In this document: piece after piece, positions 1 through 18,600 of the stretch
Position numbering within the stretch: the stretch's first letter is position 1
How the letters are laid out: each line of letters opens with the position of its first letter
Assembly: GCF_029626105.1 (NCBI RefSeq)
Contig: NZ_JARUBH010000009.1
Span: 1,054,001-1,118,000, forward strand
DNA length: 64,000 bases
Reading direction: 5' to 3'
From: Solwaraspora sp. WMMD792
GTDB taxonomy: Bacteria > Actinomycetota > Actinomycetes > Mycobacteriales > Micromonosporaceae
Made by a program: the position numbers and the translations under genes
Notes under the pieces: generated by a model
The model's database searches: none
Seen by the model: only the letters and a program-made list of their open reading frames with translations
What the model was told of the DNA's origin: nothing

Positions 1-1023
1 AGCAACGGCATGGTGCTGCGCTGCACCCCGAACCACCGGATCTGGACCACCAACCGGGGGTACGTCGAGGCCAAGGACCTCACCCCGGACGACCAGATCC
101 TGCCGCTCAACCAGCCCACCCCGGCGACCGCCGCGTCCTGGGAGTTCCGCATGCGCGCGGACGCCAGGGTGTCACCCGGCGACGTCGTGCCGACCAAGTG
201 GCAACGCGAGTCCCGACTGCCGGAGAAGTGGACCGAGGACTTCGCCCACCTGCTCGGCTGGCTGGTCGGCGACGGCTCAGTCCGGGAAGGCACCCCGGGC
301 GTACGCGGCAACGGACCCGGTGCCAGCTGGGTCTACAGCCAGTCCGACCCGGAGGCCATCGTCCAGCGGCACCAGACGGTGCTGGAAAGCATCGTCGGCC
401 TGCGATTCGATCCGGTGCAGATGCCCAATGGCACCCTGCAACTGCGCAGCAACCGTACTGCCGTCGTCGACTTCCTGACCGGACTCGGCGTGAGCACCGC
501 CCGCGCCGTGGACAAGCGGCTGCCGTCGTCGGTGCTGGAGGCGCCGCCCGAGATCCAGGCCGCCTTCCTACGCGGGCTGTTCGACGCGGACGGCTGCGCC
601 GCCGAAACCGCCAACGGCACCCGTTACGTCGGGCTCGGCGCGGTCTCGATCGAACTGCTCCGCGAGGCGCAGCGTCTGCTGAGCGGGTTCGGCATCGGCA
701 GCCGGATCTACGCCACCCGCAAGGCCGGTGACACCACCTTCCGGTACACCACGAACGGTGGCGACGAGCGCGAGTACCACGGCAAGCAGCTCTACGACCT
801 GCGGATCAGCGGGGAGAACATCGGCCTGTTCGCCAGCCGGATCGGGTTCGACCACCAGGCCAAGGCCCAGCGGGTGGCCGGTTGGCTCGAACAGCACCGG
901 TTCTACCGGACGGATCAGACGGCGAGGTTGGTCAGCCGCGAGTTCGACGGTTTCGAGACCACCTACAACCTGTCCGAGCCGCGCAACCACTCGTACATCG
1001 CCAACGGCGTGGTCGTCCGGAAC
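1..1023 (+). mobile_element. Intein with LAGLIDADG homing endonuclease (N-terminus outside window)
   Basis: A self-splicing protein element in frame inside nrdJ. Visible parts are the N-terminal block B (TPNHRIW, with the conserved T-x-x-H), two LAGLIDADG-type endonuclease motifs (LLGWLVGDGS near bases 250-280 and FLRGLFDADG near 568-600), and the C-terminal splice blocks ending NHSYIANGVVVRN. The last intein residue is Asn (1021-1023) and the +1 residue is Cys, as splicing requires. The usual penultimate His is Arg here, which some active inteins tolerate. Both endonuclease motifs keep their acidic residues, so the homing enzyme may still be active. Confidence 0.92.
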
Positions 1024-2838
1024 TGCTCGGAATACCTGCACCTTGACAATTCGTCGTGCAATCTGGCGTCGCTTAATCTGATGAAATTCCTGCGGGCCGA
1101 CGGCGGCTTCGAGGTGGAGAAGTTCGTCCGCTCCGTCGAGTTCGTCATCACCGCGATGGACATCTCCATCTGCTTCGCCGACTTCCCGACGCAGAAGATC
1201 GGCGAGACCACCCGGGCGTACCGGCAGCTCGGCATCGGCTACGCCAACCTCGGTGCGCTGCTGATGGCCTCCGGCCTGCCGTACGACTCGGAAGCCGGCC
1301 GGTCCTACGCCGCCGCCATCACCTCGGTGATGACCGGTACGGCGTACCGCCGCTCGGCTGAGCTGGCCGGTGTGGTCGGCGCCTACGACGGCTACGCCCG
1401 CAACGCCGAGGGCCACAAGCGGGTGATGCGCAAGCACGCCGCCGCCAGTGACGAGATCCGTCCGACCGGCCCGACCGCCACCGCCCTGGCCCGCGAAGCC
1501 GCCCGGCAATGGGAAATGGGCAACAAAATTGGCGAGAAAAACGGCTGGCGCAATTCTCAGGCAAGTGTATTGGCGCCCACTGGGACAATAGGCTTGATGA
1601 TGGATTGCGATACCACCGGCGTCGAGCCGGATTTGGCGCTGGTCAAATTCAAGAAACTGGTCGGCGGCGGCTCGATGCAGATCGTCAACCAGACGGTGCC
1701 GCGCGCGCTGCGCAGCCTCGGCTACCCGGAGGAGCAGGTCGAGGCAATCGTCGAGCACATCGCCGACCACGGTCACGTGGTCGACGCGCCGAGCCTGCGC
1801 ACCGAGCACTACCCGGTGTTCGACTGTGCGATGGGGGAGCGGTCGATCGCGCCGATGGGGCACGTGCGGATGATGGCGGCGGTGCAGCCGTTCATCTCCG
1901 GGGCGATCTCCAAGACGGTCAACATGCCGGAGGCGGCGACCGTCGCCGACGTCGAGCGGATCTACTTCGAGGGCTGGAAGCTGGGCCTCAAGGCGCTGGC
2001 GATCTACCGGGACAACTGCAAGGTGGGCCAGCCGCTGTCGGCGGCCAAGTCGGACAAGGCCAAGGAGACCGCCGCCGCCGAGCAGGCCAAGGTGATCGAG
2101 AAGGTCGTCGAAAAGGTCGTCGAGTACCGCCCGGTGCGCAAGCGGCTGCCGAAGAAGCGCCCGTCGGAGACGGTGTCGTTCTCAGTCGGCGGTGCCGAGG
2201 GCTACCTGACCGCCTCGTCGTACCCGGACGACGGCCTCGGCGAGGTCTTCCTCAAGATGTCGAAGCAGGGCTCGACGCTCGCCGGGGTGATGGACGCCTT
2301 CTCGGTGGCGATCTCGATCGGCCTGCAGTACGGCGTACCGCTGGAGACGTTCGTCGCGAAGTTCACCAACATGCGCTTCGAGCCGGCCGGCATGACCGAC
2401 GACCCGGACGTGCGGATGGCCGCGTCGGTGATGGACTACATCTTCCGTCGCCTGGCGTTGGACTTCCTGCCGTACGACCGGCGGGCCGAGCTGGGCATCT
2501 TCACCGCCGCCGAGCGGACCGCGCAGATGCGGGCCGAGGCGGAGGCGGAGAACGCGGCGTCGGAGCTGTCGGAGATGGCGGTGTCCGCGCCGGTCGAGCC
2601 GAAGCATCCGGAGGCGAAGGCACCGTCGTCGGCCGACTCCGGCAGCGGTACGGCGATCGAGCCGGCCGCCGCGAGTACGCCGGCTCCGGCGTCGGTGCAC
2701 TCGTCGACGGAGCTGCTGGAGGCGGTGATCGGCAAGGCGGCCGACGCGCCGCTCTGCTTCACCTGCGGCACGAAGATGCGCCCGGCCGGCAGCTGCTACG
2801 TCTGTGAGGGCTGCGGTTCCACCTCCGGCTGCAGCTGA
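1..2838 (+). CDS. nrdJ: Vitamin B12-dependent (class II) ribonucleotide reductase, 3' part, with intein
   Basis: Reduces ribonucleotides to deoxyribonucleotides with adenosylcobalamin as radical source. The frame is open at base 1, so the 5' end lies outside the window. Bases 1-1023 encode an intein; the C-extein (about 604 residues) starts at 1024 with CSEYLHLDNSS. In the RNR family this is the N-x-C-x-E motif, whose Cys carries the thiyl radical. Downstream are the phosphate-binding APTGTIG motif (near 1573-1593), a Lys/Glu-rich linker (about 2040-2160), a TSCPD-like region (about 2165-2390), an Ala/Pro-rich stretch and a cysteine-rich tail (CFTCG, CYVCEGCG) like the NrdJ C-terminal redox/zinc tail. 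Two stretches (1033-1092 and 1507-1660) use AT-ending codons unlike the rest. A strong terminator follows. Confidence 0.93.
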   Translation, partial: SNGMVLRCTPNHRIWTTNRGYVEAKDLTPDDQILPLNQPTPATAASWEFRMRADARVSPGDVVPTKWQRESRLPEKWTEDFAHLLGWLVGDGSVREGTPGVRGNGPGASWVYSQSDPEAIVQRHQTVLESIVGLRFDPVQMPNGTLQLRSNRTAVVDFLTGLGVSTARAVDKRLPSSVLEAPPEIQAAFLRGLFDADGCAAETANGTRYVGLGAVSIELLREAQRLLSGFGIGSRIYATRKAGDTTFRYTTNGGDEREYHGKQLYDLRISGENIGLFASRIGFDHQAKAQRVAGWLEQHRFYRTDQTARLVSREFDGFETTYNLSEPRNHSYIANGVVVRNCSEYLHLDNSSCNLASLNLMKFLRADGGFEVEKFVRSVEFVITAMDISICFADFPTQKIGETTRAYRQLGIGYANLGALLMASGLPYDSEAGRSYAAAITSVMTGTAYRRSAELAGVVGAYDGYARNAEGHKRVMRKHAAASDEIRPTGPTATALAREAARQWEMGNKIGEKNGWRNSQASVLAPTGTIGLMMDCDTTGVEPDLALVKFKKLVGGGSMQIVNQTVPRALRSLGYPEEQVEAIVEHIADHGHVVDAPSLRTEHYPVFDCAMGERSIAPMGHVRMMAAVQPFISGAISKTVNMPEAATVADVERIYFEGWKLGLKALAIYRDNCKVGQPLSAAKSDKAKETAAAEQAKVIEKVVEKVVEYRPVRKRLPKKRPSETVSFSVGGAEGYLTASSYPDDGLGEVFLKMSKQGSTLAGVMDAFSVAISIGLQYGVPLETFVAKFTNMRFEPAGMTDDPDVRMAASVMDYIFRRLALDFLPYDRRAELGIFTAAERTAQMRAEAEAENAASELSEMAVSAPVEPKHPEAKAPSSADSGSGTAIEPAAASTPAPASVHSSTELLEAVIGKAADAPLCFTCGTKMRPAGSCYVCEGCGSTSGCS

Positions 2839-5949: not shown

Positions 5950-6267
5950 TCAGGGCAGCTCCAGGAACTCCCGCACCGCGTCCTCCACGGCGAGCATCGT
6001 GGCGGGCGAGACGAACCCGTGGTTGTCGCGCAACGCGCTGCGGTCGAGGATCTGTACGACACTGTGGATCCGGACGAACGCGCCGCTGAGCGGGTCGCCG
6101 TCGCCCAGGCGTACCGCCAGTTGGTTGGGGTGTGGCACGTCGCGCACGACGACGAGTGCCCAGACCGCCAGCTCCTCGACGGCGTTGTACTCGTCGTTGC
6201 TGATGACCAGTACGCGGTGCTGGCTGCCGCCGCGCAGAAGTGTCCAGATCTGTCCGCGTTTCACCAC
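5950..6267 (-). CDS. MazF/PemK-like toxin
   Basis: A 105-residue protein of the PemK/MazF endoribonuclease fold. It opens VKRGQIWTLL and continues HRVLVISNDEYN, matching the family's N-terminal R-G-x-I/V-W and V-x-V-S-N-D strands; RIHSVVQILDRSAL fits the conserved C-terminal segment. Members cleave mRNA when the antitoxin is lost. It overlaps the upstream antitoxin by 7 bases, the usual coupled arrangement. Length is normal for the family. Confidence 0.85.
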   Translation of the reverse strand: MVKRGQIWTLLRGGSQHRVLVISNDEYNAVEELAVWALVVVRDVPHPNQLAVRLGDGDPLSGAFVRIHSVVQILDRSALRDNHGFVSPATMLAVEDAVREFLELP

Positions 6268-6509
6268 TGCGAGTCGCGGAGTGCGACGTCGTTGCTGGCC
6301 TCGATCAGGTCCCGCTCGTCGGCGCTCTGTTCGGCGGTCCGTTGCCGTAGGTACTCGCCGTACGCCTGGGCGGCCGCGCGCTGACGGGCACGTCGGGCCT
6401 CGGGCAGCACCCGGCGGACGGCCTCGGTCACGGCGGCGGACACGTTGCCCTGCTGCTGAAGGTAGGCGGCCACCTCGTCTGGAACGCTGATACTCAGCTT
6501 GACGGTCAT
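6261..6509 (-). CDS. Ribbon-helix-helix antitoxin of MazEF-like pair
   Basis: An 82-residue protein opening MTVKLSISVPDEVAAYLQQQ, a ribbon-helix-helix DNA-binding signature, followed by a charged alpha-helical C-terminus (ARRARQRAAAQAYGEYLRQR) suited to wrap the toxin. An AGGA ribosome site precedes the ATG. It overlaps the toxin gene and probably represses the shared promoter. It reads away from the AraC gene at 6576, so the 66 bases between hold divergent promoters. Confidence 0.82.
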   Translation of the reverse strand: MTVKLSISVPDEVAAYLQQQGNVSAAVTEAVRRVLPEARRARQRAAAQAYGEYLRQRTAEQSADERDLIEASNDVALRDSQW

Positions 6510-12996: not shown

Positions 12997-14079
12997 TCAG
13001 ACGCCCCAGTCTCGCCGGGGCACCGCCGCCTTGGCGATCGTGAAGTGTCCCGACCCGCTCGACGTCGCGTCGTCCCGGGTCTCGGTACGGTCCATCACCA
13101 CGTGCCGTCCGAAGTTCGGCACGAGTGGGCGGTTGGTCTCCCGCTTGAGCCACAGCCGGAGCAGGTGGCGTTGCCGCCCCGGCTCGGGGTGGTCGACGAA
13201 CTCCGTCCGCGAGTGCAGCGCGGCATAGTTCAGCAGCCACTGGATGTCACCGGGTTGGAAGTCCATGTCCAGGGCCACGCCGGGCTCCTGGCTGATGTCG
13301 TCGAGCAGGGTCAGCACCTCAAGCTGCTTCGGGGTCAACGGCGGCACATCCGGATAGTCCTGGGCAGCCTTGATCATGCCGCTGCCCGCGTACATGCTGA
13401 ACACGCCCTCGGTCCAGCTGACGATCGGCGAGGTGTACCAGTCGGCTGGCGCGTCCGGGTCCTGCCGACGCCAGTCGAAGTACCACGGCTCCAGCAGCAG
13501 TGGGGCCAGGTCGGGGCGCCGACGCAGCACCTCGTTGAACAGGGTGGCTCCGCTGACCAGGCTGCTCGCGCCGCCTTCCTTCGCGGGGCGCAGGCACATC
13601 AGGGCGACCACGTCGGAGCTGTCGGAGTGGAAGGGCAGCCGGTCCCGGACGCGCGACGGTAGGGCGCTGCGGTCCTGCAGGGTCTTGTCGGAGGTGGCGA
13701 GCACGTGATCGACGAGGTCGCCGAGTTCGTTCTGCCGCATCGGTACGCCGAGATGCAGACCCATCAGGTAGAAGATCGCTGCGGCGAGAGCGTCGTCGTA
13801 GCGGTCCATTCGTAGACCTCGTACCAGGACGAAGCCCCGGCCGGTGTCCATCGCCCGGCCGAACTCGGTGATCGCCCCGGCGGTGACCGGGAGCGGGTAT
13901 TCGGCGGCGGTGACGGTGCGCAGGTCCGGGTCGTCGGCCACGAATCGCCGACCAACCTGCTCAAGTTCGTCGATCTGTGCGTCGTTCAGGTGGTGGATCC
14001 ACTCTCGGGTGGCGGAGAGCTGGTCGCCCCGCCAGGCGCAGGGTGCGGTGACTGGGGTGAGTGCGGGCGCAGAGGCCAT
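12997..14079 (-). CDS. TauD/TfdA (clavaminate synthase-like) Fe(II)/2-oxoglutarate oxygenase
   Basis: A 360-residue oxygenase. Metal ligands are likely His and Asp in FHSDSSD, with the distal His in LLNYAALHSRTEF; the 2-oxoglutarate-binding Arg is in RQRHLLRLWLK. Such enzymes hydroxylate or desaturate amino acids, peptides or sulfonates using 2-oxoglutarate and O2. It is longer than classical taurine dioxygenase (about 280). The ATG at 14079 follows AAGGAAG at good spacing; the frame runs further upstream without family similarity. The gene reads away from an ABC importer and follows a 42-residue peptide gene on the same strand, 290 bases upstream. Hydroxylation of that peptide or of an imported small molecule are both possible. 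Confidence 0.85.
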   Translation of the reverse strand: MASAPALTPVTAPCAWRGDQLSATREWIHHLNDAQIDELEQVGRRFVADDPDLRTVTAAEYPLPVTAGAITEFGRAMDTGRGFVLVRGLRMDRYDDALAAAIFYLMGLHLGVPMRQNELGDLVDHVLATSDKTLQDRSALPSRVRDRLPFHSDSSDVVALMCLRPAKEGGASSLVSGATLFNEVLRRRPDLAPLLLEPWYFDWRRQDPDAPADWYTSPIVSWTEGVFSMYAGSGMIKAAQDYPDVPPLTPKQLEVLTLLDDISQEPGVALDMDFQPGDIQWLLNYAALHSRTEFVDHPEPGRQRHLLRLWLKRETNRPLVPNFGRHVVMDRTETRDDATSSGSGHFTIAKAAVPRRDWGV

Positions 14080-14369
14080 CGTCGGGTGCTTCCTTTCAGA
14101 TGCCCGGACAGGTGCTCCGCCGAGGCCGGTCGCCACGCGCTGGGGTACGAGCATCGCTTCAGCTGCCCGGCTGGGGTGCGGGAGTGAAGTCGAGCTCGTG
14201 CGTCGGGGCCGTCTCGAACTGGAGGAGACAGGAATGTGAGTCGCCGCGTCACGTGGGCCTTTGGCCGCCATCGATGAAGCGGATCGCGATCCGTGGATGG
14301 GCCGAAGGCGGTGGCGCCACCACCGCGCCCGATTTCGGGCAGAGTGGGGCCTGCGGCGGAGGGTGCGAC
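14080..14369 (-). other. Region between peptide gene and oxygenase, with three palindromes
   Basis: No convincing gene. It holds three palindromes: CGGATCGCGATCCG (14280-14293), GGTGGCGCCACC (14310-14321) and GCCCGATTTCGGGC (14327-14340). The last lies 30 bases after the peptide stop in the direction of transcription and could be a terminator or attenuator that limits readthrough into the oxygenase. The oxygenase ribosome site is at the other end. Confidence 0.45.
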
Positions 14370-14498
14370 CTAGAAGGGTACGAGGGCCTTGCCGGCACCG
14401 GTGCCGGGGCGGATCGCGGGGAACTCCGGGCCCTTCCAGTGACCGATCGGCGCACGGGTGATGGCTGGTACGGCCGCGACGGGCTTCTCCCAGCTCAT
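14370..14498 (-). CDS. Small peptide (42 residues), possible modified-peptide precursor
   Basis: Encodes MSWEKPVAAVPAITR, a middle APIGHWKG and an end RPGTGAGKALVPF: 42 residues rich in Pro, Ala and Gly, with two Trp and no Cys. GGGAG lies 6 bases before the ATG, and a near-consensus promoter (TTGACA, 17 bp, TAGCTT) sits 44 bases upstream, which supports a real gene. It is followed on the same strand by a 2-oxoglutarate oxygenase. Pro, Lys, Arg and His residues are all possible oxygenase targets. I do not recognise the family; a ribosomally made, modified peptide is inference. It might instead be a leader peptide controlling the oxygenase. Confidence 0.6.
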   Translation of the reverse strand: MSWEKPVAAVPAITRAPIGHWKGPEFPAIRPGTGAGKALVPF

Positions 14499-14541
14499 GT
14501 CCACTCCCGGGTCGACGGATTCACGGCGCAATCTGTTGGCG

Positions 14542-14570
14542 AAGCTAGCCGCCGGTACCCGTCTTGTCAA
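14542..14570 (-). promoter_or_regulatory. Consensus-like promoter for the small peptide gene
   Basis: On the minus strand, TTGACA (14565-14570), 17-bp spacer, TAGCTT (14542-14547). The -35 is perfect and the -10 fits TAnnnT. Transcription would start near 14535, giving a leader of about 37 nt with a ribosome site before the ATG at 14498. Confidence 0.72.
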
Positions 14571-14666
14571 CAGGGATGGCGTATCGCTGTGTGACACGCA
14601 TGTTAATCGACAACGGCGGTTCCCTCGACCCTGCGTACCCCACTAAGCGAGATCACATCCCGCATC

Positions 14667-14695
14667 TTGACATGGGTTTTGTTGGCCCGTACCTT
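14667..14695 (+). promoter_or_regulatory. Consensus-like promoter for the ABC importer operon
   Basis: TTGACA (14667-14672), 17-bp spacer, TACCTT (14690-14695). It faces away from the peptide promoter; the two -35 boxes are about 97 bases apart. The start would be near 14702, giving an untranslated leader of about 278 nt before the binding-protein gene. Confidence 0.7.
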
Positions 14696-14979
14696 CGCTG
14701 CAAGTCGGCGAGAGCGTCAGGCGCTGCTGGGGTGCAGCCGGACGCCGGGCCGGACCGAATGACGGCCACGCCAACTCGGCGATGCCATGAACCTGCGGGC
14801 CAGACCGACTGCGTCGGCGGGGCCGGCGTGACGATTTTTCCGGGCACCGGGCGGACAGGTCCGCCAGGGTGAACCCTCACAAACACCCCATAATCATCGA
14901 TTCCTTTCGTTGTACAGCCCTGTCACCGGCTCCGGTGCCAGGCGACCTCAGCTGCATACACAAGATCAGGAGTGGTGAC
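14696..14979 (+). other. Long leader of the ABC importer operon
   Basis: About 280 bases with no certain gene. It contains a 7-bp hairpin (14850-14865, GGCGGAC and GTCCGCC), a short open frame of 37 codons (14759-14872) without a clear ribosome site, and GGAG before the lipoprotein start. The length suggests post-transcriptional control, but I recognise no known riboswitch. Confidence 0.35.
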
Positions 14980-15945
14980 ATGAGCACACGACGTCTGGGC
15001 GCGGTGGCGGTCTCCGCCGCGCTGCTCCTCGTGAGCGCCTGCGGTGGAAGCGACGAGTCCGCCGACGCCGCCGGTGGCGACACCAAGGTTTCCGTCACCA
15101 GTTTCGGCTGCGAGATCTGGAACACCTGGGCGATCGACAAGGGCATCTACGCCGAGCACGGACTGGAAGTCGAACTGGTCCGGGCCGGCGGCGGGTCGGC
15201 GGCGGTGGCCGCCGTGCTCTCCGGAGCCGCCGATTTCGGTTACGTCAACGGCTACACGGCGATCAACGCCTACAACACCGGTTTCCCGATCCAGATGGTC
15301 TCCGGTGCGAACGTCAACGCACTGCCGCCGGCCGAGCCCGCGCAGGGCGTCTTCGTCGGCAACGACTCACCGATCGAGTCGCCGGCCGATCTTGTCGGCA
15401 AGAAGATCGCCGTCAACGAGATCAACGGCATCAACCAGATCGTGACCTCGAACTGGCTGAAGGCCAACGGGGTGGAGCCGGACAGCGTCAGCTTCGTGGC
15501 GCTGCCGTTCTCCGAGCAGATCCCGGCCGTGCTCAACGGCCGGGTGGACGCGGCGCAGCTGGGCTACTCGCTGCTGGGCGACAACAACGACACCGTACGG
15601 AGCCTCGCCGACCCGTTCGCCAGCATCGAGAAGACCTACATCGCCACGTACGTGTCCTCGAAGGACTTCGTGGCCAACAGCGACGCAGCCGAGCGCTTCC
15701 ACGAAGCCCTGACCGAGACCATGCAGCAGCTTGAGGACCCGGCGAACACCGACGAGTCGTTCCGGTTGCTGTCGGAGTGCCAGAAGGTGCCGGCGGAGAC
15801 CCTTGCCGCGCAACCACAGAACAAGCTGGAGCCGGCGGTCGACATGGCCGCGTTGGAGCAGATGGCCCAGCAGATGGTCGAACTCAAGCTGATGCCGGAG
15901 ACGCCCGACCTCGGGGCACTCGTCGCCGACTTCGCCAAGTCCTGA
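14980..15945 (+). CDS. ABC transporter substrate-binding lipoprotein (NMT1/SsuA-like)
   Basis: A 321-residue lipoprotein. The signal peptide ends in the lipobox VSAC, followed by a GGSDESADAAGG linker. The mature part has the NMT1/THI5/SsuA fold pattern: INKG-like WAIDKGIYAEHGLEVELVRA, GAADFGYVNGYTAI, DLVGKKIAVNEING and LNGRVDAAQLGY. Relatives bind sulfonates, nitrate, pyrimidine precursors or aromatic acids. Start chosen at the ATG with CAGGAG upstream and a proper signal sequence. It begins a four-gene importer operon. Confidence 0.9.
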   Translation: MSTRRLGAVAVSAALLLVSACGGSDESADAAGGDTKVSVTSFGCEIWNTWAIDKGIYAEHGLEVELVRAGGGSAAVAAVLSGAADFGYVNGYTAINAYNTGFPIQMVSGANVNALPPAEPAQGVFVGNDSPIESPADLVGKKIAVNEINGINQIVTSNWLKANGVEPDSVSFVALPFSEQIPAVLNGRVDAAQLGYSLLGDNNDTVRSLADPFASIEKTYIATYVSSKDFVANSDAAERFHEALTETMQQLEDPANTDESFRLLSECQKVPAETLAAQPQNKLEPAVDMAALEQMAQQMVELKLMPETPDLGALVADFAKS

Positions 15946-15990
15946 CCCGATTCCCGAGCAAGGACGCAGCGTGCGGAAGGAAGACCTGAA

Positions 15991-16851
15991 ATGGCGCCTG
16001 GCGTCGGTGTGACCCAGACAGTCGAGTCGACGGTCCGTCCCTCGCCACCCTCCGGCGGGCCGGCCCCGGCCCGCCGGAGGCGCCCCGTACCCGATTGGGT
16101 CATCGGGCTGGCGGGCGCGGCGACGATGCTCGTGCTGTGGGACCTGGTGGTCCGCAGCGGTGCGGTGTCCCCGGACTCCCTGCCGTACCCCGGCACCACG
16201 ATGCTGCGGGCCGGTGAGCTCCTCGTCGACCTCACCTTCCTGACGGAGGTGGCGCACACCCTGTGGGCCTGGCTGATCGCGATGGCCGCCGCCAGCGCCG
16301 TCGGGATCCCGTTGGGTCTGACACTCGGCTACTTCTCCGCGCTGAACCGGCCCGCGTCCTCGGTCGTCCACGCCGGCCGGTCGATCCCCTCCTCAGCGTT
16401 CCTCCCGATCGCCATCCTGCTGTTCGGGCTGGGCACGCAGATGAAGGTGTCGCTGGCGATCTACGCGATCTTCTGGCCGATCCTGCTGAACGCCATGTAC
16501 GGCGTCCGCGACACCGAACCCCTGATGCTGGCCACCGGGCGGAGCATGGGCTGGGGACGGCTGCGGCTGCTGCGCCGGGTGGTGCTGCCGTCGGCAGCCC
16601 CGTCCATCGCCACCGGCCTGCGGGTCGCCAGCTCGACGGCGCTGATCGTGGTGCTCTCGGCCGAGCTGCTCGGTGCCACCAGCGGCGTGGGAAACGTGAT
16701 CACCACGTACCAGCAGGCGCAACGCCCGGACTTCGTCTACGCGGGGATTCTCCTCGTGGGGGTGCTCGGAATGCTGCTCTATTACGGCTTCAACCTGGCC
16801 GAACGCCTCATCGTGCCGTGGGGCCAGGCGCAACGGGAGGGCGGAAAATGA
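15991..16851 (+). CDS. ABC transporter permease (SsuC/TauC-like), first
   Basis: A 286-residue inner membrane permease with about six helices and the EAA-type cytoplasmic loop (LATGRSMGWGRLRLLRRVVLPS region). A Pro/Arg-rich N-terminal tail precedes the first helix (VIGLAGAATMLVLWDLVV). The last codons overlap the next permease (ATGA at 16848-16851). Two different permeases rather than one suggest a heterodimeric channel. Confidence 0.88.
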   Translation: MAPGVGVTQTVESTVRPSPPSGGPAPARRRRPVPDWVIGLAGAATMLVLWDLVVRSGAVSPDSLPYPGTTMLRAGELLVDLTFLTEVAHTLWAWLIAMAAASAVGIPLGLTLGYFSALNRPASSVVHAGRSIPSSAFLPIAILLFGLGTQMKVSLAIYAIFWPILLNAMYGVRDTEPLMLATGRSMGWGRLRLLRRVVLPSAAPSIATGLRVASSTALIVVLSAELLGATSGVGNVITTYQQAQRPDFVYAGILLVGVLGMLLYYGFNLAERLIVPWGQAQREGGK

Positions 16852-17693
16852 GCACCAACGACGCGACGCGGTCGAGCCTGGTCGGCTCGGCGCTGGCGGT
16901 GGGGCGTGGCGTGCAGTCACTGTGGCTGCTCGCCCTGCTCCTGGTCGTCTGGGAGATCGCCGCCCGACTCGCCGGCTCCCTGTTCATCCCACCGGTGTCG
17001 CAGATCTTCGTCGCCTTCGTCGACACCTGGCTCTCCGCCTCGCCTACCTCACTTTTCCTCAGCGAACAGTTCCGGACCGACGTGCTGCCCAGCCTGGCGC
17101 GACTCGGCCTCGGCTACGGCACAGCCGCCGCGATCGGCATCTGCGCCGGCATCCTGATCGGCGTGTGGCGGCCCGCCGGCGCGTTCTTCAACCCGCTGAT
17201 CCGGTTGGGCATGTCGGTGCCGGTGACCGCGCTGCTGCCCATCGCGATCGTGGTCTTCGGCATCACCAGCGGGATGAACGTCTTCCTGATCGGGCTCGGC
17301 TGCCTGTGGCCGATCCTGATCAACACCTACGACGGGGTACGCGGACTGGACCGCACCGCGGTCACCGCCGCGAAGAGCCTGCGATTGACCCGGCGTCGCT
17401 ACTTCCTCCAGGTGCTGCTGCCCGGCGCCAGCCCGGCGATCTTCGCCGGTCTGCGGATCAGCATCGGCATCGCGCTGGTCCTCATGGTGGTCTCCGAACT
17501 CTACGCCGCGACCGCCGGGCTCGGCTTCTACATCGTCAACCAGCAGCGGCTGTTCCGGTTCCCGGAGCTGTGGTCGGCGATCGTGCTCCTGGCGTTGTTG
17601 GGAATCCTCTTCAACGCCGTCTTCGCCCTGGTCGAGCGCCTGCTGCTCGGCTGGCACCGCAACGTGCGCCCGGACGGCGCGGAACGCCACTGA
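16848..17693 (+). CDS. ABC transporter permease (SsuC/TauC-like), second
   Basis: A 281-residue permease paralogous to the previous gene, with about six helices and the loop TAAKSLRLTRRRYFLQVLLP carrying the ATPase-coupling helix. The ATG at 16848 overlaps the preceding stop, so start and coupling are clear. Its stop region is duplicated in tandem (17675-17712), leaving a second, unused copy of the last codons. Confidence 0.88.
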   Translation: MSTNDATRSSLVGSALAVGRGVQSLWLLALLLVVWEIAARLAGSLFIPPVSQIFVAFVDTWLSASPTSLFLSEQFRTDVLPSLARLGLGYGTAAAIGICAGILIGVWRPAGAFFNPLIRLGMSVPVTALLPIAIVVFGITSGMNVFLIGLGCLWPILINTYDGVRGLDRTAVTAAKSLRLTRRRYFLQVLLPGASPAIFAGLRISIGIALVLMVVSELYAATAGLGFYIVNQQRLFRFPELWSAIVLLALLGILFNAVFALVERLLLGWHRNVRPDGAERH

Positions 17694-17712
17694 CGGCGCG
17701 GAACAGCACTGA
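17675..17712 (+). repeat. 19-bp tandem duplication across a stop codon
   Basis: CGGCGCGGAACGCCACTGA (17675-17693) is repeated at 17694-17712 with 2 mismatches. The first copy ends with the permease stop. It looks like a recent slippage duplication. Confidence 0.85.
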
Positions 17713-17754
17713 CGGTCGGTCGACCACACCAGGCACAACGCAGAGGAGGACCGG

Positions 17755-18600
17755 ATGGAACCGGTGACGATCCCGCACCACCAGCAGGACCCGGGCAGCG
17801 CGACACCCGTGCTCGACGTCCGCGAGGTGGGCAAGTCCTACCCCTCGCGCAAGGGGGACGTGCTCGCCGTACGCAGCATCGAGTTCGCGGTACACGCCGG
17901 CCAGTTCGTCTCGGTCGTCGGCCCGTCCGGCTGCGGCAAGACGACACTCATGATGTGCATCGCCGGGCTCCTGCCCATCTCCACCGGGGAGGTCGTCTTC
18001 CGGGGCGAGACCATGTCGGGTCCCCAGGACGGCGTCGCGGTCGTCTTCCAGGACTACAGCCGGTCGCTGTTCCCCTGGTTGACGGTCGAGAAGAACGTCG
18101 CGCTTCCGCTGCGGGACCGGCGGCTGCCCCGTGCCGAGATCCGCGATCGGGTACGGCAGTCGCTGGAGATGGTGGGTCTGGCCCACGCCGCCGGCCTGTA
18201 TCCGTGGCAGCTCTCCGGCGGCATGCAACAGCGGGTCGCGATCGCGCGCGGACTCGCCGTACGCCCCGAGATGCTGATCATGGACGAGCCGTTCGCCTCG
18301 GTGGACGCCCAGACCCGGGCGAGCCTGGAGGATCTGCTGCTCAAGATCTGGGCGGAGACGGGGACGACGGTGCTGTTCGTGACCCACGACATCGACGAGG
18401 CCGTGTACCTGTCCGACCGGGTGATCGTCCTGTCGCAGGGGCCGTCCACCGTCGTCGCCGACCTGCCGGTCCCACTCGACCGGCCCCGCGACCAGATCGC
18501 CACCAAACAGACGGCGACCTTCGGCGAGCTTCGGGAAGAGGTCTACTCGCTCGTCATGTCCTCCCAGCGGCGCACCTCCCTGTCGGCCGAACCGACCTGA
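17755..18600 (+). CDS. ABC transporter ATP-binding protein (SsuB/TauB-like)
   Basis: A 281-residue ATPase with Walker A GPSGCGKTT, Q-loop VFQDYSRSLFPW, signature LSGGMQQRVAIARGLA, Walker B MLIMDEPFASVD and H-loop VTHDID. It energises import through the two preceding permeases. AGGAGGA lies just upstream of the ATG at 17755. The cargo is unknown; the divergent 2-oxoglutarate oxygenase could act on the imported compound, as TauD does with taurine, but the family match is not specific enough to say so. Confidence 0.92.
   Translation: MEPVTIPHHQQDPGSATPVLDVREVGKSYPSRKGDVLAVRSIEFAVHAGQFVSVVGPSGCGKTTLMMCIAGLLPISTGEVVFRGETMSGPQDGVAVVFQDYSRSLFPWLTVEKNVALPLRDRRLPRAEIRDRVRQSLEMVGLAHAAGLYPWQLSGGMQQRVAIARGLAVRPEMLIMDEPFASVDAQTRASLEDLLLKIWAETGTTVLFVTHDIDEAVYLSDRVIVLSQGPSTVVADLPVPLDRPRDQIATKQTATFGELREEVYSLVMSSQRRTSLSAEPT

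Follow-up and report, generated by a model that had tools for sequence, protein, structure and literature searches.

The locus analysed here raises the question of why a short open reading frame is found upstream of an oxygenase gene, and whether the encoded peptide is the substrate of the enzyme or serves it in another way. The first-pass annotation of the window, by which we mean the whole 64,000-nucleotide stretch of DNA, regarded the two as a precursor peptide and its modifying enzyme, which would be a new type of small RiPP system. The features on which this proposal was built are the following.

12997 to 14079, minus strand: TauD/TfdA-family Fe(II)/2-oxoglutarate oxygenase of 360 residues (PF02668, E 7.6e-27)
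14370 to 14498, minus strand: open reading frame of the peptide, here called type A, of 42 residues, MSWEKPVAAVPAITRAPIGHWKGPEFPAIRPGTGAGKALVPF, followed by a TAG stop
14504 to 14508, minus strand: ribosome-binding site GGGAG of the peptide gene, seen in the sequence and kept in 8 of 8 type A loci
14542 to 14570, minus strand: promoter of the peptide gene, with -35 TTGACA (14570 to 14565), a 17-nt spacer and -10 TAGCTT (14547 to 14542)

The peptide gene had been called real, and its conservation agrees with this. Type A is found in 8 of 354 Micromonosporaceae genomes at 88-100% amino acid identity, namely in three genomes of the genus of the window (100% identical) and, at 88-95%, in five of a second genus. 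Owing to the relatedness of the species, genome counts of this kind are not independent. A species-wide contig scan, from which records very near the genome of the window may be absent, found type A only in Micromonospora antibiotica, M. wenchangensis and M. haikouensis, and none was found on plasmids or phages. The peptide gene and the SsuA gene next to it have the same synonymous rate (mean pS 0.30 against 0.26), whereas amino acid changes are slower in the peptide (pN 0.049 against 0.078). Since there is no extra constraint at its synonymous sites, selection acts on the encoded peptide. Judged by these substitution rates, type A is under purifying selection at the amino acid level and the frame is not a chance one.

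The signals described around the gene are all present, on the minus strand; the first-pass annotation gave no strand. The proposed ribosome site is indeed a proper one. The claim of a consensus promoter holds for the perfect -35 and the 17-nt spacing, but only three of six positions of the -10 agree with the E. coli consensus, and yet all three elements are kept in the alignment of all 8 relatives from the two genera. The weak -10 match is also the reason why a consensus promoter scan called no promoter at the peptide gene. A hairpin, GCCCGAAATCGGGC, is present about 30 nt past the stop codon as noted. Its reading as a terminator is rejected, because it lacks a U-tract, its stability within the window does not exceed that of shuffles (z -0.16) and the other genus does not keep it consistently. 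Elsewhere in the window, two adjoining short genes (5950-6509, minus strand) resemble by eye a MazF/PemK-type toxin and its antitoxin, and the protein at the left edge (10-2838, plus strand) has an intein/Hint-like sequence, TPNHRIWTTNRGYVEAKDLTPDDQIL, at its start, as though a larger gene were split by an intein. An intein-like insertion is also seen near the N-terminal region of the GyrA gene of genome G009 (L031 13151-16933, minus strand).

Upstream of the peptide gene, a second transcription unit runs in the opposite direction. The features between and within the two units are given below.

14573 to 14587, minus strand: operator-like element GCGATACGCCATCCC, just upstream of the -35 of the peptide gene
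14647 to 14661, plus strand: operator-like element GCGAGATCACATCCC, upstream of the importer promoter, conserved in the alignment and near-palindromic in the other genus
14667 to 14695, plus strand: divergent importer promoter (TTGACA, 17 nt, TACCTT), a block kept in all 8 loci
14696 to 14745, plus strand: conserved untranslated leader on the importer transcript, in which GCTGC-TGGGGT-GCAGC may form a hairpin; an Rfam scan of the whole window gave no match
14980 to 15945, plus strand: SsuA/NMT1-type substrate-binding lipoprotein (PF09084, TIGR01728)
15991 to 16851, plus strand: first ABC permease (PF00528), order kept in 8 loci
16848 to 17693, plus strand: second ABC permease (PF00528), order kept in 8 loci
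17755 to 18600, plus strand: NitT/TauT-type ABC ATPase (PF00005), below cutoff for the NCBIfam taurine/nitrate-type ATPases

The genes at 14980-18600 form an SsuA/SsuC/SsuC/SsuB-type operon with the same order in all 8 loci. This divergent NitT/TauT importer lies beside type A in every carrier genome, and the genomes with an SsuA ortholog are precisely the 8 of 354 that carry the peptide. The leader block of about 50 nt is strongly conserved across the two genera and lies far upstream of the ssuA start. On the other side of the peptide gene, a TauD adjoins type A in 3 of 8 loci, all of them in the genus of the window. The five genomes of the second genus have no neighbouring oxygenase and no conserved gene downstream of the peptide, but all 8 type A genomes carry a TauD at least 65% identical somewhere.

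A second kind of peptide, type B, is found directly upstream of sister TauD-family oxygenases. It has a different sequence of 36-46 residues, for example MIRVPQGSGLLVRGYEEPLRVHPPREGMRPGTAAGDPQTPF, and its genes have good Shine-Dalgarno sites. Type B occurs in 18 of 354 Micromonosporaceae genomes, exactly the 18 that have a TauD at the 65% level or above, and on a Streptomyces plasmid it again lies just upstream of a TauD. The expectation that such a peptide would be conserved beside TauD-like genes in other genomes is therefore borne out. Common to types A and B is the motif RPGTxAGx4PF-stop, placed identically relative to the C-terminus, and a comparison of the peptides shows a conserved C-terminal core with a variable N-terminus. 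A degenerate DNA pattern for the motif matches the genome of the window twice, at the genes of peptide A and peptide B (reversed control 0), and has no match in eight genomes and one plasmid with peptide-less TauD relatives. A peptide search of genomes with peptide-less TauDs gave chance-level matches only, and the motif was not found in viral contigs. Besides the known peptides, the clusters hold no further small frames with a "-PF stop" ending, apart from one frame ending in GW which is antisense to a gene. In Pfam, NCBIfam, PHROGs and PDB neither peptide type has a family match (type A PDB matches are at chance level only); the first-pass annotation likewise knew of no named family.

The operator-like elements tie these genes together. 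The composite pattern GCGAKAYNNNRTCYC followed by 1-7 nt and TTGAC has exactly three matches in the 7.4-Mb genome (reversed control 0), which lie at the promoters of the peptide A gene, the divergent importer and the peptide B-TauD pair. The three therefore form one regulon. In a related genome, the element also precedes the ferredoxin/ferredoxin-reductase pair of a Rieske-oxygenase cluster encoding IclR regulators, and in the same genome peptide B-TauD has an IclR gene immediately upstream. In the genome of the window, a large catabolic island includes two IclR genes, some 20 kb away from peptide B-TauD. We infer that an IclR-family regulator binds the element, and the genes probably form a catabolic regulon for an imported compound under IclR-family control. 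The island, which the type B pair borders (G000 C9, about 4050-4090 kb), encodes a BMP-type ABC transporter, two divergent IclR regulators, a ferredoxin/reductase, an HpcH-like aldolase, a PfkB-like kinase, amidohydrolases, a P450-reductase fusion, an alcohol dehydrogenase (ADH), an aldehyde dehydrogenase (ALDH) and a PucR-type regulator.

Taken together, the peptides make up an undescribed small-protein family tied to a subfamily of 2-oxoglutarate oxygenases and to an importer; this status rests on three independent lines, namely position, co-occurrence and the common operator. It could be asked whether peptide and oxygenase have any functional link at all. The peptide might serve the importer or another member of the regulon only, with the TauD an ordinary catabolic enzyme that is nearby via co-regulation. 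Peptide A tracks the importer in 8/8 genomes and an adjacent TauD in 3/8, and peptide-less TauDs do occur with importers. We consider such a separation improbable, as it leaves unexplained why type B is found directly upstream of TauD in 18/18 genomes and on the Streptomyces plasmid.

The oxygenase was correctly recognised as an Fe(II)/2-oxoglutarate enzyme on the same strand as the peptide. In the alignment it retains the catalytic HxD...H iron site and the 2-oxoglutarate-binding Arg, and by these residues it is an intact TauD/TfdA enzyme. Its closest solved relatives are 7n7v, a "predicted hydroxylase" (E 2e-44), and FrbJ (5eqn, E 2e-31); a literature search for a matching RiPP family, the peptide motif or 7n7v found nothing relevant. 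The type B enzymes fall into a single clade of the oxygenase tree (100/100). The enzyme of the window clusters with members of another family that have no peptide, with support of 97/92 in the full tree and 95/98 once the distant rows are removed. A single clade of all peptide-linked TauDs is rejected (p-AU 0.003). As the TauDs of types A and B are not one clade, the tree suggests that peptide and oxygenase were probably paired on two or more occasions, or else that the pairing was repeatedly lost. Such repeated gain or loss argues for a functional link. Four residues are exclusive to the type A and B TauDs (M106, L134, R147, Q264), which is too few to interpret as a control pair also has four.

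Oxygenases that are 60-73% identical are found in genomes without the peptide. One of them, 73% identical to a type B TauD, lies in a very similar catabolic cluster of a peptide-less genome. The neighbours of the TauD relatives include importers, IclR regulators, Rieske and P450-reductase oxygenases, ALDH, ADH and amidohydrolases. From these neighbours and the 73% identical enzyme, a role in small-molecule catabolism seems likelier for the oxygenase than dedicated peptide tailoring. Two further loci were observed among the relatives. In G260 (C1:3617000-3636900), a TauD 68% identical to that of the window shares an operon with a NitT/TauT importer of its own, and there is no peptide. The congener G006 (C1:5714000-5733900) has a decayed locus, where a truncated TauD adjoins the second permease, which is truncated as well, and where peptide, SsuA and first permease are missing.

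These observations bear on the proposed precursor-plus-enzyme layout, which stands in so far as it recurs at the type B loci, but is weakened by the five type A genomes without a neighbouring oxygenase and by the peptide-less oxygenases. In such a RiPP-like pathway, the TauD-type enzyme would hydroxylate or oxidise the peptide, with its conserved Arg, Pro, Thr and C-terminal Pro-Phe, to a small product. This would be a conserved cofactor-, metallophore- or signal-like compound, destined for use or for re-import through the linked ABC transporter, and where an adjacent oxygenase is missing the type B enzyme would act in trans. The recurring gene order, the presence of a TauD of at least 65% identity in 8/8 peptide A genomes, and the disorder of a peptide whose C-terminal core is conserved while its N-terminus varies fit with this, as does the amino acid constraint, which is stronger on the peptide than on the enzyme (type B pN 0.009 against 0.043 for TauD). 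Close relatives of the enzyme, however, are found in very similar catabolic clusters without any peptide, the linked importer is an uptake system and the partners in the regulon are catabolic. Furthermore, no RRE, leader protease or exporter was noticed among the gene calls around the type A and B loci, a survey that included no dedicated RRE model and for which gene calls outside annotated records came from a simple codon-score script that may miss small genes. We therefore hold a RiPP-like role possible rather than probable. A narrower version, in which a two-gene system with a single TauD-type oxygenase, without recognition domain or protease, oxidises the RPGTxAGx4PF peptide to a housekeeping cofactor- or metallophore-like product for use or re-import by the NitT/TauT transporter, seems doubtful to us.

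The AlphaFold prediction for the peptide shows no secondary structure (mean pLDDT 61, only four sequences), and type A is thus predicted to be probably unstructured. This is compatible with a substrate as well as with a linear docking motif.

The position of type B between promoter and TauD on one transcript, together with the conserved C-terminus and variable N-terminus, raises the question whether the frame might act in cis as a leader or arrest peptide. Its translation would sense a metabolite and control the downstream TauD, and type A of the other genus would be a relic. All type B copies and all type A copies of the second genus end in TGA, which would suit such a function, but the three copies from the genus of the window that precede a TauD end in TAG or TAA. 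The spacer to TauD is not conserved, synonymous sites show no extra constraint, and five type A loci have neither a TauD nor another conserved gene downstream. A cis-acting leader is thus quite unlikely in our view.

The reading we prefer, with a probability of roughly 0.4, is that the peptide is a trans-acting accessory or regulatory partner of the oxygenase in a catabolic regulon for an imported compound. A small peptide would be made together with the NitT/TauT-type importer and the TauD-type oxygenase, its C-terminal RPGTxAGx4PF tail might dock on the oxygenase or a common partner, and docking might tune the activity or stability of the enzyme; this would make it a partner and not a cleaved natural-product precursor. 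The matching distributions (8 = 8 of 354 genomes for peptide A and importer, 18 = 18 of 354 for peptide B and TauD of at least 65% identity) favour a partner. As type A persists in five genomes without a downstream TauD or conserved gene, it acts in trans. Against a partner role, we know of no comparable accessory peptides for TauD enzymes, the near-total residue conservation of type A would also be in keeping with a modified core peptide, and catalytic relatives without the peptide could equally mean that it has a separate purpose. If the peptide is a regulatory partner, this would be an unusual TauD-type oxygenase with a dedicated peptide regulator. If it is the substrate, the RiPP pathway would be a very small one and would lie outside antibiotic chemistry.

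Several known systems resemble parts of this arrangement. TnaC and SpeFL are metabolite-sensing leader peptides, and type B is likewise a short frame between a promoter and a catabolic gene with conserved C-terminal residues, but type A is retained in loci that lack a downstream gene and the spacer has no conserved attenuator. Of the solved relatives, FrbJ, which belongs to FR-900098 biosynthesis, and 7n7v have no peptide partner that we know of. RiPPs tailored by 2-oxoglutarate oxygenases include cinnamycin and duramycin, with Asp hydroxylation, and the targets of lasso and thioamitide hydroxylases. They share with our locus a short ribosomal peptide gene beside such an oxygenase, whereas here we noticed no class-defining maturation enzyme, RRE, protease or exporter, and it is the N-terminus that varies and the C-terminus that is conserved. 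PqqA and MftA are conserved cofactor precursor peptides and similarly small, with a near-invariant C-terminal region and ties to catabolic oxidoreductases; our peptides differ in their unrelated sequence, in a much narrower distribution and in that no radical-SAM or chaperone partner is seen. TauABCD and SsuABCDE also link a NitT/TauT-type ABC importer (SsuA/NMT1-type binding protein, permeases and ATPase) with a TauD/TfdA-family oxygenase. Here, binding protein and oxygenase stay far below the taurine/sulfonate equivalog cutoffs (for taurine, TIGR01729, 32.7 against 304 bits; PRK11480, 20 against 490), and the system differs further by its extra conserved peptide gene and its clusters with Rieske and P450 oxygenases, ALDH, ADH and amidohydrolases.
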